42,511 nucleotides of DNA from the IMG/VR virus record IMGVR_UViG_3300034072_002239, positions 1-42,511 of that record. One strand, 5' to 3'. The stretch comes from a virus. This document shows positions 13,742-42,511 of this stretch, piece by piece. A program made the translations under genes and the position numbers. Within the stretch, counting starts at the first letter, position 1. Each line of letters begins with the position of its first letter. The notes under the pieces are model-generated. The model was given only the letters and a program-made list of their open reading frames with translations, was not told the DNA's origin and searched no databases.

Positions 13742-13826
13742 GCGGGCGTGGCGGAATTGGTAGACGCACCAGATTTAGGTTCTGGCGCCTAACAGCGTGG
13801 GGGTTCGAGTCCCTTCGCCCGCACCA
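13742..13826 (+). tRNA. tRNA-Leu (anticodon UAG)
   Basis: An 85-nt cloverleaf. Acceptor arms GCGGGCG and CGCCCGC pair fully, followed by A and an encoded CCA. The D arm has GGCGGAATTGGTAGACGC, typical of tRNA-Leu. The anticodon stem CCAGA/TCTGG encloses TTTAGGT, giving anticodon UAG. A long variable arm (class II) and GGTTCGAGTCC T arm are present. It reads CUA codons, which are rare in GC-rich genomes. It is on the strand opposite the surrounding late genes, so it needs its own promoter; no good one is evident. Confidence 0.95.
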
Positions 13827-13841
13827 TGCCGATATGGCTGC

Positions 13842-13927
13842 GCGGATGTGGCGGAATGGTAGACGCCCGAGACTTAAAATCTTGTGAGGGTATCCTCGTG
13901 CGGGTTCGAGTCCCGCCATCCGCACCA
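13842..13927 (+). tRNA. tRNA-Leu (anticodon UAA)
   Basis: An 86-nt cloverleaf starting 15 bp after the first tRNA. Acceptor arms GCGGATG and CATCCGC pair, followed by A and an encoded CCA. The D arm GGCGGAATGGTAGACGC is tRNA-Leu-like. The anticodon stem CGAGA/TCTTG (one G-T pair) encloses CTTAAAA, giving anticodon UAA. A long variable arm and GGTTCGAGTCC T arm are present. It reads UUA, the rarest Leu codon in GC-rich bacteria. The two genes are alike and may come from a duplication or be acquired together. It could be co-transcribed with the first. Confidence 0.95.
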
Positions 13928-37850: not shown

Positions 37851-38195
37851 TCAGGCCGCCTGGGGCAGCGTGAGTGCGGCAATCATCGATTGGACCTTCC
37901 GGCTCTTGGGTCTTGCGATCGCGACGTAGCTGAAATCTCCCGCACCCCGGCGGATCTGGACGAGGTGGACCACCCCGTTCTCCGCAGCCCAGCGGGCACG
38001 GGCGGCGAGACGCATCAGCGATTGGCGGCGCCATTCCGGCAGGCGCTGGGGCTTTGCCGTATCGACATCACGCGCCAGAAACCCGCGGTGGTATTCAAGA
38101 CGCTCGCCCGGTTCGGCCGCATCAAGCCAGGCACAGAGCAGATCTTCATTTGGCAGGCTTGCCTGCTGCCTTGCGGCAGTGATGTGCTCAACCAT
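37851..38195 (-). CDS. Hypothetical phage early protein
   Basis: A 114-residue protein starting MVEHITAARQQASLPNEDLL at ATG 38195, 8 bp inside the end of the upstream gene. It continues CAWLDAAEPGERLEYHRGFL, then a helical LPEWRRQSLMRLAARARWAA and a terminal GDFSYVAIARPKSRKVQSMI. It resembles small early proteins found in sphingomonad prophages. A segment GVVHLVQIRRGAGDFSYVAI looks like a beta hairpin. Function unknown. Second gene of the early operon downstream of the Cro-position gene. Confidence 0.72.
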   Translation of the reverse strand: MVEHITAARQQASLPNEDLLCAWLDAAEPGERLEYHRGFLARDVDTAKPQRLPEWRRQSLMRLAARARWAAENGVVHLVQIRRGAGDFSYVAIARPKSRKVQSMIAALTLPQAA

Positions 38196-38415
38196 GGTTT
38201 GCGGCTCCTGCCACGCCGGCACTTCGCTCCCCGCGCGGGCGGTAGCTGGCCATGAAGTCACGAATGCGCTGCTCGGTCTGGGGCCAAAGGCGCCTGCCCT
38301 TCCTGAGCTGGCTAATCAGCTTCCAGTCGTTGGCTGCCTGGCGGCCAAAATAGGTCTCCGAGAGATTGGTGCGGCGGAGGAAGGCGTCAATGTCATGAAG
38401 GATAGGATGCGTCAT
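38188..38415 (-). CDS. Cro-position small DNA-binding-type protein
   Basis: A 75-residue protein divergent from the repressor and first in the early minus-strand operon, where Cro lies in lambdoid phages. The sequence THPILHDIDAFLRRTNLSET, YFGRQAANDWKLISQLRKGR, RLWPQTEQRIRDFMASYRPR has the length and helix pattern of a compact HTH (YFGRQA..DWKLISQLRKGRRL reading as helices 2 and 3). A family of similar small proteins in alphaproteobacteria supports a regulator role. ATG at 38415. It should repress the repressor promoter; this is inference from position. Confidence 0.8.
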   Translation of the reverse strand: MTHPILHDIDAFLRRTNLSETYFGRQAANDWKLISQLRKGRRLWPQTEQRIRDFMASYRPRGERSAGVAGAANHG

Positions 38416-38450
38416 GAGTCGGATTAATACCGTTCACATCCCATCTCACA

Positions 38451-38469
38451 AGTAGGGATCAATCCCACA
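38451..38469 (-). promoter_or_regulatory. Operator O-left (19 bp, repressor site)
   Basis: On the minus strand it reads TGTGGGATTGATCCCTACT, with GGGAT and ATCCC half-sites. It lies in the 95-bp intergenic space between the divergent early gene and repressor. Its partner at 39250-39268 differs from it only in the central 3 bases. Binding by the S24 repressor is inferred from the match and position. Confidence 0.75.
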
Positions 38470-38510
38470 TTTGTATTGACCGGCAATATCCACAGAGCTA
38501 GACACAGCTC

Positions 38511-39233
38511 ATGACCCAACGCTCACTCGTCAACATCGAGCACCTCAGGAAGGTTCTCGAGACTGCCACTGCCCCTGGAACCGAGTGGAATGCCCGCTCG
38601 CTTTCGCTGGCTGCGACTGGCGGGAAATCTCCGCATATCGTGCGCGAGATCCTTCGTGGCCGCAGCAACAACCCGACACTCGAAACCCTGGTCGGGCTCT
38701 CTCGCGCCCTTGGCATCGACATTTCCCGCCTGGTTTCTGGCGGCGAAGGCGTAATGCCCCGCGTTGGCGGCGTTGCACCTTACGAACGCCTGCAGGTTCT
38801 GGGCGCAGTTGCGGCAGGCGTCTGGCGCGAACAGACCGAATGGCCCGAGGAAGATCGCTACTTCATTGAGGTCGGCCCAAGTCCGGTTGTTGGCGGCGAG
38901 CGCTTTGCCCTGCGCATGGAAGGCAATTCCATGGACAAGCTCATTCCGCCCGGGTCTGACCTTGAGTGTCTGCGCACGATCTTTGGCGAGATAGAGCCGG
39001 TCCCGGGCGACATCGTTATCGTCCAGCGCGACCGCCACGACATGCACGAGCTCACCTGCAAGCGCCTCGATCACGACGGGAAGAATTACATCCTGCGCGC
39101 TGAGTCCACGCGGCCAGAGTTTCAGGAGCCGATTATCATCGGCAGGCCCGATGCCGACAACTTCAGCGATGACGGCGTTCAAATCATTGGGATCGTCTTG
39201 CGCGCGCACCAGCGGCTTTACAGCCGCCGCTGA
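38511..39233 (+). CDS. Phage repressor, S24 (LexA-like) autopeptidase
   Basis: A 240-residue repressor. N-terminal DNA-binding helix-turn-helix (ARSLSLAATGGKSPHIVREI, LRGRSNNPTLETLVGLSRAL, about residues 28-75). C-terminal S24 peptidase with Ser140 in MEGNSMDKL and Lys184 in ELTCKRL; the AVAAG sequence (residues 99-103) gives an Ala-Gly cleavage site as in LexA. DNA damage (RecA) should cause self-cleavage and prophage induction. It is divergent from the Cro-position gene and flanked by two 19-bp operators, one on each side. A possible -35 TTGACC is 33 bp upstream of the ATG. Confidence 0.93.
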   Translation: MTQRSLVNIEHLRKVLETATAPGTEWNARSLSLAATGGKSPHIVREILRGRSNNPTLETLVGLSRALGIDISRLVSGGEGVMPRVGGVAPYERLQVLGAVAAGVWREQTEWPEEDRYFIEVGPSPVVGGERFALRMEGNSMDKLIPPGSDLECLRTIFGEIEPVPGDIVIVQRDRHDMHELTCKRLDHDGKNYILRAESTRPEFQEPIIIGRPDADNFSDDGVQIIGIVLRAHQRLYSRR

Positions 39234-39249
39234 GTGCCGCCGCGTCGAT

Positions 39250-39268
39250 TGTGGGATTTTGCCCTACT
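39250..39268 (+). promoter_or_regulatory. Operator O-right (19 bp, repressor site)
   Basis: TGTGGGATTTTGCCCTACT matches the minus-strand read of O-left at 16 of 19 positions; the mismatches are the 3 central bases. It is 17 bp after the repressor stop and 8 bp before the putative -35 at 39277. The repressor may therefore control the recombinase operon too. Confidence 0.72.
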
Positions 39269-39276
39269 CGTTCTCG

Positions 39277-39306
39277 TTGACGACGTTTATATCCCGCACA
39301 TATTCT
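39277..39306 (+). promoter_or_regulatory. Putative promoter for the recombinase operon
   Basis: TTGACG (39277-39282) and TATTCT (39301-39306) are spaced by 18 bp, matching sigma-70 at 5/6 and 4/6. The O-right operator is directly upstream. The operon start at 39369 is about 60 bp away. Confidence 0.45.
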
Positions 39307-39315
39307 TCCTGACAT

Positions 39316-39340
39316 GATCAGGGAGACAGTTCCCCTGATC
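39316..39340. repeat. Inverted repeat upstream of recombinase operon
   Basis: GATCAGGG (39316-39323) and CCCTGATC (39333-39340) make an 8-bp inverted repeat around a 9-nt spacer, in the leader of the operon and downstream of the putative promoter. It may be an RNA hairpin, an operator, or a recombinase or accessory-protein binding site. Confidence 0.5.
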
Positions 39341-39368
39341 GCCTTGCCAGCCATCAGGTTCTACAAAC

Positions 39369-39587
39369 ATGCACGACCTTTCCGCGGGAAGTAGCTCGCA
39401 ACTCATCAACAATATGACCGACGACGAGCGCTTCACCGAGTTGGGGCAGATCATCGCGGCAGGCATCATCCGGATGCACGCAAAGTCCAGTTCTATATCT
39501 GCGGGCGACGCAGATAGTTCACTTGGCTCTTCGGCGAGCAAGAGCGTGTGTCGAACCCGGGGACGCCCCCGAGTTGGAGAACGCTAA
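39369..39587 (+). CDS. Small hypothetical protein, recombinase operon
   Basis: A 72-residue protein, ATG at 39369, whose TAA overlaps the ATG of the DUF2924 gene. A helical stretch SSQLINNMTDDERFTELGQI, IAAGIIRMHAKSSSIS, then a basic tail (CRTRGRPRVGER). Small proteins of this kind commonly precede DUF2924 in the alphaproteobacterial recombinase module. Function unknown; a second ATG is at 39414. Confidence 0.75.
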   Translation: MHDLSAGSSSQLINNMTDDERFTELGQIIAAGIIRMHAKSSSISAGDADSSLGSSASKSVCRTRGRPRVGER

Positions 39588-40048
39588 TGCAGAACTATGA
39601 CGACCCGCAGGTGCTTGCTCGCCTGGCCGCGCTAAAGGCTATGACAATGCCGCAGCTACGGCAGGAGTGGGAGAAGCTATTTGATGCCGCTGCTCCCAAC
39701 AACAGCCGCCCGTTTCTCGAGCAGCGCCTTGCCCACCGGATCCAGGAGCTGGCCTTCGGTGGCCTTTCCAAACCCATCGTCCGTACCCTCAATATGCTGG
39801 CCGACGAGGTCGAGGGCAAGAAGGTCAGGAAGTCGGTAATCTCCGATCCCCGCAATCCAATCATTGGCACGCGCCTGATCCGGGATTGGAAAGGGACCGA
39901 GTACACGGTCGTGGTCGCCAAGGATGGATTCGACTGGAATGGTCGGCGCTACAAATCGCTGTCGGCGATTGCCAAATCTATCACCGGCACCAACTGGAAC
40001 GGATATCGCTTCTTTGGCCTGCGGGCAGCCGAAGGAGGCGCGCGATGA
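39587..40048 (+). CDS. DUF2924 protein, partner of the serine recombinase
   Basis: A 153-residue DUF2924 protein from ATG at 39587. LKAMTMPQLRQEWEKLFDAA, PNNSRPFLEQRLAHRIQELA and FGGLSKPIVRTLNMLADEVE are the family pattern. The C-terminal GTRLIRDWKGTEYTVVVAKD, FDWNGRRYKSLSAIAKSITG, TNWNGYRFFGLR is a small beta domain (RAMA-like) seen in DNA-interacting proteins. DUF2924 genes lie just before recombinase genes in many alphaproteobacterial integrated elements and may direct or regulate recombination (inference). The stop overlaps the recombinase ATG by 4 bp (ATGA). Confidence 0.9.
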   Translation: MQNYDDPQVLARLAALKAMTMPQLRQEWEKLFDAAAPNNSRPFLEQRLAHRIQELAFGGLSKPIVRTLNMLADEVEGKKVRKSVISDPRNPIIGTRLIRDWKGTEYTVVVAKDGFDWNGRRYKSLSAIAKSITGTNWNGYRFFGLRAAEGGAR

Positions 40049-41361
40049 CTGAAGCACGACGCCGCATCCGCTGCGCTATCTACACCCGGAAGTCATCAGA
40101 GGAAGGCCTTGAGCAAGAGTTCAACAGCCTCGATGCGCAGCGCGAAGCCTGTGAAGCCTACATCGCGAGCCAACGTCACGAAGGCTGGCTCACCATGCGC
40201 GAGGGCTATGACGACGGCGGGTATTCAGGGGGCAACCTTGATCGCCCCGGCCTGCAGAACCTGCTCGAAGACATCCGTACAGGCCTGGTCGACGTCATCG
40301 TAGTCTACAAGATCGACCGCCTGTCCCGCTCGCTGATGGATTTTGCCCGGCTCGTTGAGGTGTTTGATGAGCACAAGGTGACCTTTGTCTCGGTCACCCA
40401 GTCATTCAACACGACGACCTCGATGGGGCGCTTAACCCTAAACGTCCTCCTGTCATTTGCGCAGTTCGAGCGCGAGGTGACCGGCGAGCGCATTCGCGAC
40501 AAGATTGCAGCCAGCCGCGCCAAGGGTATGTGGATGGGCGGGTTCGTGCCGTGGGGATATGATGCTGTCGACCGCAAGCTTGTGATCAACGAGCCGGAAG
40601 CGGCACAGATCCGCTTCATCTTCGAGCGATTTGTCGAGTTGGGATCAGCCACCAGGCTCACCCGCGAGCTTGTCCGCAAAGGCATTACCAACAAGCGAGG
40701 TCGGCCCATCGACAAAGGGTTCCTCTACAAGCTCTTCCGCAATCGTGTTTATCTTGGTGAAGCGGTTCACAAGGGCACAAGCTACCCTGGCGAGCATCAA
40801 GCGATCATCGACCAGCCGCTCTGGGATAAAGTCCACTCTATCCTGAAAATCAGCCCCCGGGTTCGGGCCAACAACACCCGTGCGCAAACCCCCGCAATGC
40901 TCAAGGGGCTTATCTACACCGACACCGGCGTTGCGATGACGCCGACGCATACACGTAAGGGTGAGAAGCTATATCGCTATTACATCTCGATGGATGCTCT
41001 GAAGAACCGCAGCGATGAAGGCCAGGGCTCAATTGCTCGCCTCAACGCCGGCGTAATCGAAAGCGCGGTCGTTCAGAAAATCCGACAGATGTTGCGCGCG
41101 CCCGAAATTGCAGCCAAGGCTTGCGCTGCACTCAGTGCTGCGAGATCGGGCCTTACCGAGAACGATGTAGCGAGTGCTTTGGCAACCTTCGACAGCTTCT
41201 GGGACAATCTGTTCCCGGCAGAGCAGGACCGGACCGCCCGGCTGCTCATCGAACGCGTTGTTGTCAGCAAGGAAGGCATGTCGCTTGATCTGCGGACCAG
41301 CGGGCTTAGCTCTTTGGTCAGCGACATGTTGCAATTGCCCAAGCTGGACAAAGCCGCATGA
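40045..41361 (+). CDS. Large serine recombinase (phage integrase)
   Basis: A 438-residue serine recombinase with catalytic Ser17 in YTRKSS. The N-terminal resolvase domain includes FNSLDAQREACEAYI, the SLMDFARLV and FNTTTSMGRLTLNVLLSFAQ segments. The Recombinase domain (residues ~170-290) contains MGGFVPWGYD and KGFLYKLFRNRVYLGEAVHK. The zinc-ribbon position lacks Cys pairs, as in this alphaproteobacterial subfamily, and a coiled coil follows (about residues 370-400). It would integrate the phage at attP/attB. ATG at 40045 overlaps the DUF2924 stop. It is the likely integrase of this prophage; the tyrosine integrase at 1-321 is a separate relic. Confidence 0.93.
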   Translation: MTEARRRIRCAIYTRKSSEEGLEQEFNSLDAQREACEAYIASQRHEGWLTMREGYDDGGYSGGNLDRPGLQNLLEDIRTGLVDVIVVYKIDRLSRSLMDFARLVEVFDEHKVTFVSVTQSFNTTTSMGRLTLNVLLSFAQFEREVTGERIRDKIAASRAKGMWMGGFVPWGYDAVDRKLVINEPEAAQIRFIFERFVELGSATRLTRELVRKGITNKRGRPIDKGFLYKLFRNRVYLGEAVHKGTSYPGEHQAIIDQPLWDKVHSILKISPRVRANNTRAQTPAMLKGLIYTDTGVAMTPTHTRKGEKLYRYYISMDALKNRSDEGQGSIARLNAGVIESAVVQKIRQMLRAPEIAAKACAALSAARSGLTENDVASALATFDSFWDNLFPAEQDRTARLLIERVVVSKEGMSLDLRTSGLSSLVSDMLQLPKLDKAA

Positions 41362-41774
41362 GTGAAGCCGCCTGCATCACCACGGTCTTTATCCCACTCG
41401 TGATCCGAAAGCGGAACGGGCGGCCGCGCATTGCGCCGCCTGATGACTATGTCGCTGATGACGACAATGGCGGCGTAGACCCGCACATAATGCGCGCCAT
41501 TGCGCTTGCATGGAGCTGGAAGCGCAAACTTGAGACTGGGGAAGCATCCTGCAACCAGGACATAGCCACTGCTGAGGGGTTTACCGCTGCCTATGTCGGT
41601 CGGGTTGTGAGACTGGCTTATCTCTCGCCCGCCGTGCTCCACAAGCTGCTGATTGAGCGGAATGCTCCGGCCGCCAGGCTTAAGGACTTATGGTCTGCGA
41701 TTGATCTGCCTTGGGCGAAGCAGGAGGCGGTCATCTTTCGGACAGGCGGCAACCAATATGAACGCCCCCTTTGA
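41358..41774 (+). CDS. Small conserved protein downstream of recombinase
   Basis: A 138-residue protein that recurs downstream of DUF2924-linked recombinases. The start VFIPLVIRKRNGRPRIAPPD is basic, then DPHIMRAIALAWSWKRKLET, ASCNQDIATAEGFTAAYVGR and LAYLSPAVLHKLLIERN form a probable HTH (IATAEGFTAAYVGRVVRLAYLSP region). This suggests DNA binding and a role as recombination directionality factor or regulator; this is inference. Its ATG overlaps the recombinase stop (ATGA). Its last five codons are within a 23-bp tandem duplication. Confidence 0.8.
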   Translation: MSEAACITTVFIPLVIRKRNGRPRIAPPDDYVADDDNGGVDPHIMRAIALAWSWKRKLETGEASCNQDIATAEGFTAAYVGRVVRLAYLSPAVLHKLLIERNAPAARLKDLWSAIDLPWAKQEAVIFRTGGNQYERPL

Positions 41775-41869: not shown

Positions 41870-42511
41870 CTAGCCGGCGCCTCGCAAGGGCTTAACCCGG
41901 TCAACAGCGTTTACGTGACGGGCCAGGAGTGCGCCGGCTTGCTCAAGATTGGCAGCCGCGTAGGCTTCGAAGATCCGCCAATGGTCGAAGTTGTATCTGG
42001 GCTTCCATGGTCCGCGTTCGCGCGACGCAAACACGTGACGGGAATAGGCTAAATTCAGCTCCGCAATCGAGGCAATCAGCCACGGCATCCCGCAGGGTTT
42101 GGCGAGGCCGACATGAAATTCGCGATTAGCGGCCTCACTTTCAAACAAGTCCTGCGCTGCATCACCTCGGCGCAGCACGCTTTCGAGGAACTTGAGGTGA
42201 TCCTTGCCTGGGGGTCGCGCGATCGAGCGCACTGCCAGCACCTCGAGAGCTCCGCGCATTGCCGCGACTTCACGTTCTGTCGCGGCATCCAGCGTGGTTA
42301 CGCGCACGCCGCGACGCGGCAGGGATTCGAGCAATCGTTGGGCTTCGAGCTTTCGAAATGCCTCGCGCATGGTTCCCTGGCTGACGGCAAATTCCCGGGC
42401 CAGATCATCCTGCCTGAGGCGCTCATTGGGTGCGAAGTCGCCGTGGAGGATGCGTCGCAGCAAGGCTTCCACAATCCGCTCGACCAACCCATCGGCGTTT
42501 CCATGAGGTGA
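41870..42511 (-). CDS. GntR-family regulator with FCD domain (partial at window end)
   Basis: A transcriptional regulator of the FadR (FCD) subfamily of GntR. The winged-helix part (ALLRRILHGDFAPNERLRQD, DLAREFAVSQGTMREAFRKL, EAQRLLESLPRRGVRVTTLD) is followed by the FCD domain (EVAAMRGALEVLAVRSIARP, SEAANREFHVGLAKPCGMPW, YSRHVFASRERGPWKP) with histidines of the metal site. The frame is open to the edge, so the true start is probably outside the window; a TTG at 42487 is the last in-window start. It is the first non-phage gene on the right side and thus marks the host flank. Target genes are unknown. Confidence 0.88.
   Translation of the reverse strand, partial: SPHGNADGLVERIVEALLRRILHGDFAPNERLRQDDLAREFAVSQGTMREAFRKLEAQRLLESLPRRGVRVTTLDAATEREVAAMRGALEVLAVRSIARPPGKDHLKFLESVLRRGDAAQDLFESEAANREFHVGLAKPCGMPWLIASIAELNLAYSRHVFASRERGPWKPRYNFDHWRIFEAYAAANLEQAGALLARHVNAVDRVKPLRGAG

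Follow-up and report, generated by a model that had tools for sequence, protein, structure and literature searches.

In the immB region of phages phiKO2 and N15, three OR and two OL operators are arranged around the repressor gene cB, according to the part of the published description available to us (PMC4997575). In HK022 and lambda the cI gene is likewise flanked on both sides by operator sets, and the accessible text of PMC8053113 reports repressor looping for phiKO2, HK022 and lambda, gives an OL-OR distance of ~630 bp for phiKO2 and ~700 bp for HK022, and states that the helical phasing of loops matters below ~500 bp. Rhizobium phage 16-3, an alphaproteobacterial temperate phage, has operators for its C repressor on the left and on the right, which the available portion of PMC12429752 lists as oL1, oL2, oR1 and oR2. 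A literature search for repressors and operators of Sphingomonas phages or of the Sphingomonadaceae found no paper.

The locus described here lies in the viral record IMGVR_UViG_3300034072_002239, the whole of which (42,511 nucleotides) we call the window. An initial annotation, made from the sequence alone, had pointed to two matching 19-bp operators flanking an S24 repressor gene and had proposed that one protein could act through them on the early operon, its own gene and the recombinase operon. Our comparison with related loci indicates that these two sites are very probably the two strongest of five operators in a compact lambda-like immunity switch. The features of the region are listed below, with each predicted promoter given as -35 box, spacer and -10 box.

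38188..38415, minus strand: cro-like gene (75 aa), first of the early operon, divergent from the repressor gene
38424..38451, minus strand: predicted early promoter, TTGTGA, 16-bp spacer, TATTAA, ending ~8 bp before the cro-like ATG
38428..38445, no strand assigned: UP1, candidate degenerate operator with one good half (ATCCC), within the predicted spacer of the cro-side promoter; TACCGTTCACATCCCATC, 4 of 6 core letters
38451..38469, minus strand: UP2, predicted strong operator (first site of the initial annotation), between two divergent promoters; 6 of 6 core letters
38476..38504, plus strand: predicted repressor promoter, TTGACC, 17 bp, TAGACA, ending 6 bp before the repressor ATG
38478..38495, no strand assigned: UP3, candidate degenerate operator inside the predicted repressor-promoter spacer; GACCGGCAATATCCACAG, 4 of 6 core letters
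38511..39233, plus strand: repressor gene (240 aa), HTH and Peptidase_S24
39250..39268, plus strand: DN1, predicted strong operator (second site of the initial annotation), upstream of the recombinase-operon promoter; 6 of 6 core letters
39277..39306, plus strand: predicted recombinase-operon promoter, TTGACG, 18 bp, TATTCT; 9 of 12 in a consensus scan
39281..39298, no strand assigned: DN2, candidate degenerate operator at 31 bp from DN1, within the spacer predicted for the recombinase-operon promoter; CGACGTTTATATCCCGCA, 4 of 6 core letters
39369..41774, plus strand: downstream operon of a 72-aa ORF, a DUF2924 protein, a large serine recombinase and a 138-aa ORF (PHROG 14161)

The repressor and its divergent neighbour

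The repressor is predicted to combine an N-terminal HTH with a C-terminal S24 domain in a CI/LexA fold. It matches PF00717 (Peptidase_S24) at 4.5e-10, with HTH_3 just under the cut-off, and a PHROG repressor family at 5.2e-17. A search by sequence for a solved structure found none, and an AlphaFold2 model built from 19 sequences (pLDDT 80.8, pTM 0.58) has helices at residues 28-36 and 43-48, which we take as the HTH, and is of low confidence in a linker at 77-89; the top PDB matches of the model are a lambda-186 hybrid, lambda repressor and LexA. The residues Ala102-Gly103, Ser140 and Lys184 are invariant in 19/19 repressors, and this combination of an Ala-Gly site with a Ser/Lys pair is consistent with self-cleavage. 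In contrast, the CB repressor of phiKO2/N15 is described in the available part of PMC4997575 as being without the Ser/Lys self-cleavage pair. Because S140 and K184 are present in the window's protein, its switch is N15-like in layout and does not have an N15-type repressor.

The codons of the HTH contain a palindrome of their own. In a clade of about 70% identity (L009, L010, L021, L045, L046, L049, L050, L052 and L054, below called the 70% clade) the codons for Gly-Lys-Ser-Pro-His spell GCGGGAAAGAGCCCGCA, which is operator-like, and a weaker version, GGCGGGAAATCTCCGCAT, is seen at 38619-38636 of the window. This may be an intragenic operator or a mere coincidence of codons.

The divergent 75-aa protein has no Pfam match, HTH families included, and the name 'Cro-like' therefore rests on its position, its size and an HTH-like sequence pattern. 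By tblastn a cro-like partner lies at the same place in 35/37 relatives. Beyond this gene the early operon encodes an AAA ATPase, a DUF669 protein and a helicase.

The pair of 19-mers in the window

The two 19-mers that had been reported to flank the repressor gene are present, at 38469-38451 on the minus strand and at 39250-39268 on the plus strand, and they are the only two occurrences of the pattern TGTGGGATTNNNCCCTACT in the 42,511-base window, in which no third copy is found with up to three mismatches. In 100 shuffles of the window the pattern had a mean of 0.15 occurrences and none of the shuffles contained two. Because TGTGGGATTNNNCCCTACT was derived from the data, a fairer test was run on the pair itself. 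When the 95-bp cro-cI gap was compared with the 135-bp cI-orf72 gap on both strands, the best ungapped 19-base match was that of UP2 with DN1, which are identical at 16/19 positions, and this score was equalled in 4/2000 Markov shuffles and in 6/2000 pairs of window segments of the same geometry, a chance of ~0.2-0.3%. UP2 and DN1 are each a GGG-N6-CCC inverted repeat; of the 11 copies of this core in the whole window, each gap flanking the repressor gene has one, with 0.06 expected in 230 bp. The two sites do lie on opposite strands, as the initial annotation had stressed, and this orientation has little meaning since the site is a near-palindrome.

Conservation among relatives

Related loci were collected from viral contigs with three queries, which gave 8, 34 and 58 loci that overlap, while a viral-contig search with the L023 repressor found no relative. 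A scan of genome contigs recovered only L011, a 91% relative that belongs to a Sphingomonadaceae MAG; matches were then seen in 22 of 397 genomes of the same family, three of them at 68% or more, and phage GenBank records yielded distant repressors only, at less than 60% identity. None of the eight relatives of 88-100% identity (L003-L008, L011 and L044) has lost either site, and no site differs by more than one arm letter. The spacing from UP2 to DN1 is 797-801 bp in the window, L008, L011 and L044, and helical phasing is uninformative at such a spacing because it exceeds the ~500 bp limit given in the available text of PMC8053113.

A matrix trained only on 16 relatives of 63-72% identity ranked UP2 first and DN1 seventh in a scan of the whole window. 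Their scores, 13.3 and 8.0, are not decisive for the window taken alone since the best scores in Markov sequence range from 6.9 to 20.0. A strict scan for 18-bp palindromes missed the window and its nearest relatives altogether.

Five proposed operator positions

The initial annotation had identified two sites, both of which stand; comparison with relatives adds three degenerate positions that it had missed, so that five are recognised. UP1-UP3 lie between the cro-like and repressor genes, and DN1 and DN2 in the gap that separates the repressor gene from the operon downstream. In relatives of 63-72% identity, clean repeats occupy two to three places upstream, centred at about -76, -50 and -25 from the repressor start, and there are one to two downstream repeats, at positions 28-31 bp apart. 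The UP1 position is a perfect repeat in L062, L064 and L066 and aligns with TACGGGAC..ATCCTACA in the 70% clade, the UP3 position is a perfect GGG-N6-CCC repeat in 17/22 representatives, and that of DN2 is CGCGGGATATATCCCACC-like in the 70% clade. Among 22 non-redundant representatives of 40 loci, five or six of the six core letters were found at UP1 in 13/22, at UP2 in 11/22, at UP3 in 17/22, at DN1 in 4/22 and at DN2 in 14/22, against a background of 2.7% at random places; the counts for DN1 and DN2 are underestimates, because L044, L064 and L066 have downstream sites, visible in other scans, that are not caught by fixed anchors. UP1, UP3 and DN2 are strong sites in other clades and UP2 and DN1 strong sites in the window, where UP1, UP3 and DN2 are candidate operators by alignment to relatives and not by their own strength.

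With the promoters as predicted, each degenerate site would lie inside one promoter spacer, with the strong sites just outside. The recombinase-operon promoter came from the consensus scan, and its TTGAC...TATTC/TATCC pattern is seen again in most relatives; the early and repressor promoters are absent from the scan list and were both read by eye from the sequence. The cro-like and repressor messages (ATG at 38415 and 38511) may be leaderless, since both predicted -10 boxes end 6-8 bp before the ATG.

Linked change of repressors and predicted operators

The operator sequence is not constant across the family. The loci L064-L066, with repressors 31-44% identical to that of the window, carry operators of a GCGGGTA type on both sides of the gene, and other types found on both sides are GTCGGA in L023, ATGTGA in L024 and L111, and TCGGGA in L106. 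The start of the putative recognition helix differs by type as well, being SPH, NPY, NAY or SPN with GGGA, NPD with GGGTA, HSQ with CGGA and GET with TGTGA. When the downstream regions were swapped among eight loci, the total score of the true pairing was equalled in 1/20000 permutations; a locus's own partner scored highest in only 5/8, and the GGG types cross-match. A change of operator sequence on both sides together, at similar spacing, is what one would predict for sites bound by the co-encoded repressor. We regard this linked change, the strongest of the sequence evidence for repressor binding, as support and not as proof, because the independent changes of type are few.

In a test that used no motif, a palindrome shared by both sides and unequalled in 60 shuffles was found in 16/43 loci; in a further 3/43 it went beyond all but one shuffle, in 4/43 the result was unconvincing and in 20/43 there was no shared palindrome. 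This last group includes the window, L007, L011, L084, L086 and most of the repressors below 40% identity. The window fails this test because its arms are imperfect and three of its sites are degenerate.

A proposed immunity switch

Taken together, the operator reading of the sites is well supported by the sequence comparisons. From their positions the predicted operators could act on the early (cro) operon, on the repressor gene and on the recombinase operon, and the proposal that one repressor governs all three gains backing from the conserved positions and from the co-change of sequence on both sides. We infer the binding, cooperativity and autocleavage, and any loop between the two sets, as follows. 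Repressor dimers would bind tightly to UP2 and DN1 and would cooperatively recruit further dimers to the weak neighbours within the promoter spacers, that is to UP1 at the early promoter, DN2 at that of the recombinase operon and UP3 at the repressor's own. In a lysogen, the early and recombinase operons would be held off and the repressor would limit its own level; upon DNA damage, self-cleavage by the S24 domain would release all three promoters.

The features by which a lambda-type OL/OR module can be recognised are found here apart from an HTH match in the Cro-like protein, with the binding and the loop being predictions. Between repressor and cro the family has three positions for operators that overlap both promoters, of which the window has one in strong and two in degenerate form, and beyond the repressor gene a second set of predicted operators is present at an early promoter. 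The 3+2 count and its order around the repressor gene are those of immB in phiKO2/N15, although three of the five are degenerate in the window. In those phages, as far as the available part of the description goes, OL controls repA and the operators are 16 bp of the form T-A-N10-T-A, whereas the window's downstream sites precede a recombinase operon and its operators differ both in sequence and in which of them are strong. In lambda the sets are 2.3 kb apart with three operators in each, while the window has one strong site per set outside the promoter core.

A repressor loop, also raised in the initial annotation, is plausible over the ~798 bp between the strong sites, a distance within the range covered by the published cases, as against ~630 bp between OL and OR in phiKO2 in the available text. 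The window's clade is unusual in having its strong sites outside the promoter cores, a short way upstream of the -35 boxes, and degenerate sites within the promoters. The repressor might instead act mainly by a UP2-DN1 loop, or by activating its own promoter from UP2, and not by simple blocking; we think this unlikely. If it were true, the loci of the wider family would form a natural series, with operator sequence and the strength of the sites rewired and the geometry nearly fixed.

The switch proposed here is of a known design overall and opens no new kind of regulation. It places uncultivated phages, some at least from Sphingomonadaceae, in the lambda/N15 switch class, and five operator positions with a consensus are now given for them. 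Operators turn over at similar geometry across repressors of 28-45% identity, which makes these loci a useful data set on the co-change of repressor and operator.

Other explanations for the sites

The sites could serve mainly the Cro-like protein, with the S24 repressor binding elsewhere or weakly. This protein is the constant divergent neighbour noted above and its putative HTH also varies with operator type, being DWK in the GGG types and DAS or DAH in others. However, the putative recognition helix of the repressor varies with operator type as well, and in phiKO2, according to the accessible part of PMC4997575, Cro binds at OR3 only and the repressor at all five sites. We therefore consider a Cro-like binder improbable and the repressor the better candidate.

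Also to be weighed is whether the sites belong to a host LexA-like or similar regulator that the phage exploits. Some prophages borrow host regulators, but the genomic distribution of the sites speaks against this idea. The initial annotation had suggested looking for further copies in the host genome; in the 3.4-Mb MAG that carries the 91% relative, only the two prophage copies are found with at most one mismatch. In two other hosts every exact occurrence of the palindrome TGYGGGANNNNTCCCRCA lies just upstream of the repressor, and hits with one mismatch are few and scattered. Together with the tracking of the repressor by operator type, these results largely refute a host regulator, which we hold to be very improbable.

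Slighter still is the prospect that the serine recombinase, whose gene is found downstream of the second site, has its attachment or binding sites in these repeats. We have dropped this explanation since the sites are placed at promoters, ~0.8 kb from the recombinase start, and since L064, L066, L023 and L024, where no homologous recombinase gene follows directly, still carry them in altered sequence. A chance likeness of two GC-rich stretches, to which the probability calculated for the pair leaves a small room, not nil given the many possible comparisons, is refuted by the conservation and recurrence of the sites at the same positions in diverged relatives and has next to no likelihood. The sites are best read as operators of the S24 repressor.

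The downstream operon and other features of the window

DUF2924 and recombinase genes lie downstream in all examined relatives with a repressor identity of at least 60%. The switch as proposed suggests that in this phage family a serine recombinase operon is under the control of the immunity repressor. At 39548-41774 of the window the gene for the DUF2924 protein directly precedes that of the large serine recombinase, and the 138-aa partner is usually next. The leader of this operon, at 39307-39368, could form a GATCAGGG...CCCTGATC hairpin; the z-scores for folding of the leader are -1.7 in the window, -3.4 in L009, -2.7 in L011, -1.9 in L022 and +0.2 in L062. Elsewhere in the window, Rfam identifies two adjacent tRNA genes at 13742-13924 on the plus strand. 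The very end of the record carries, at 41870-42487 on the minus strand, a gene for a GntR/FCD regulator, which is possibly host DNA past the phage end.
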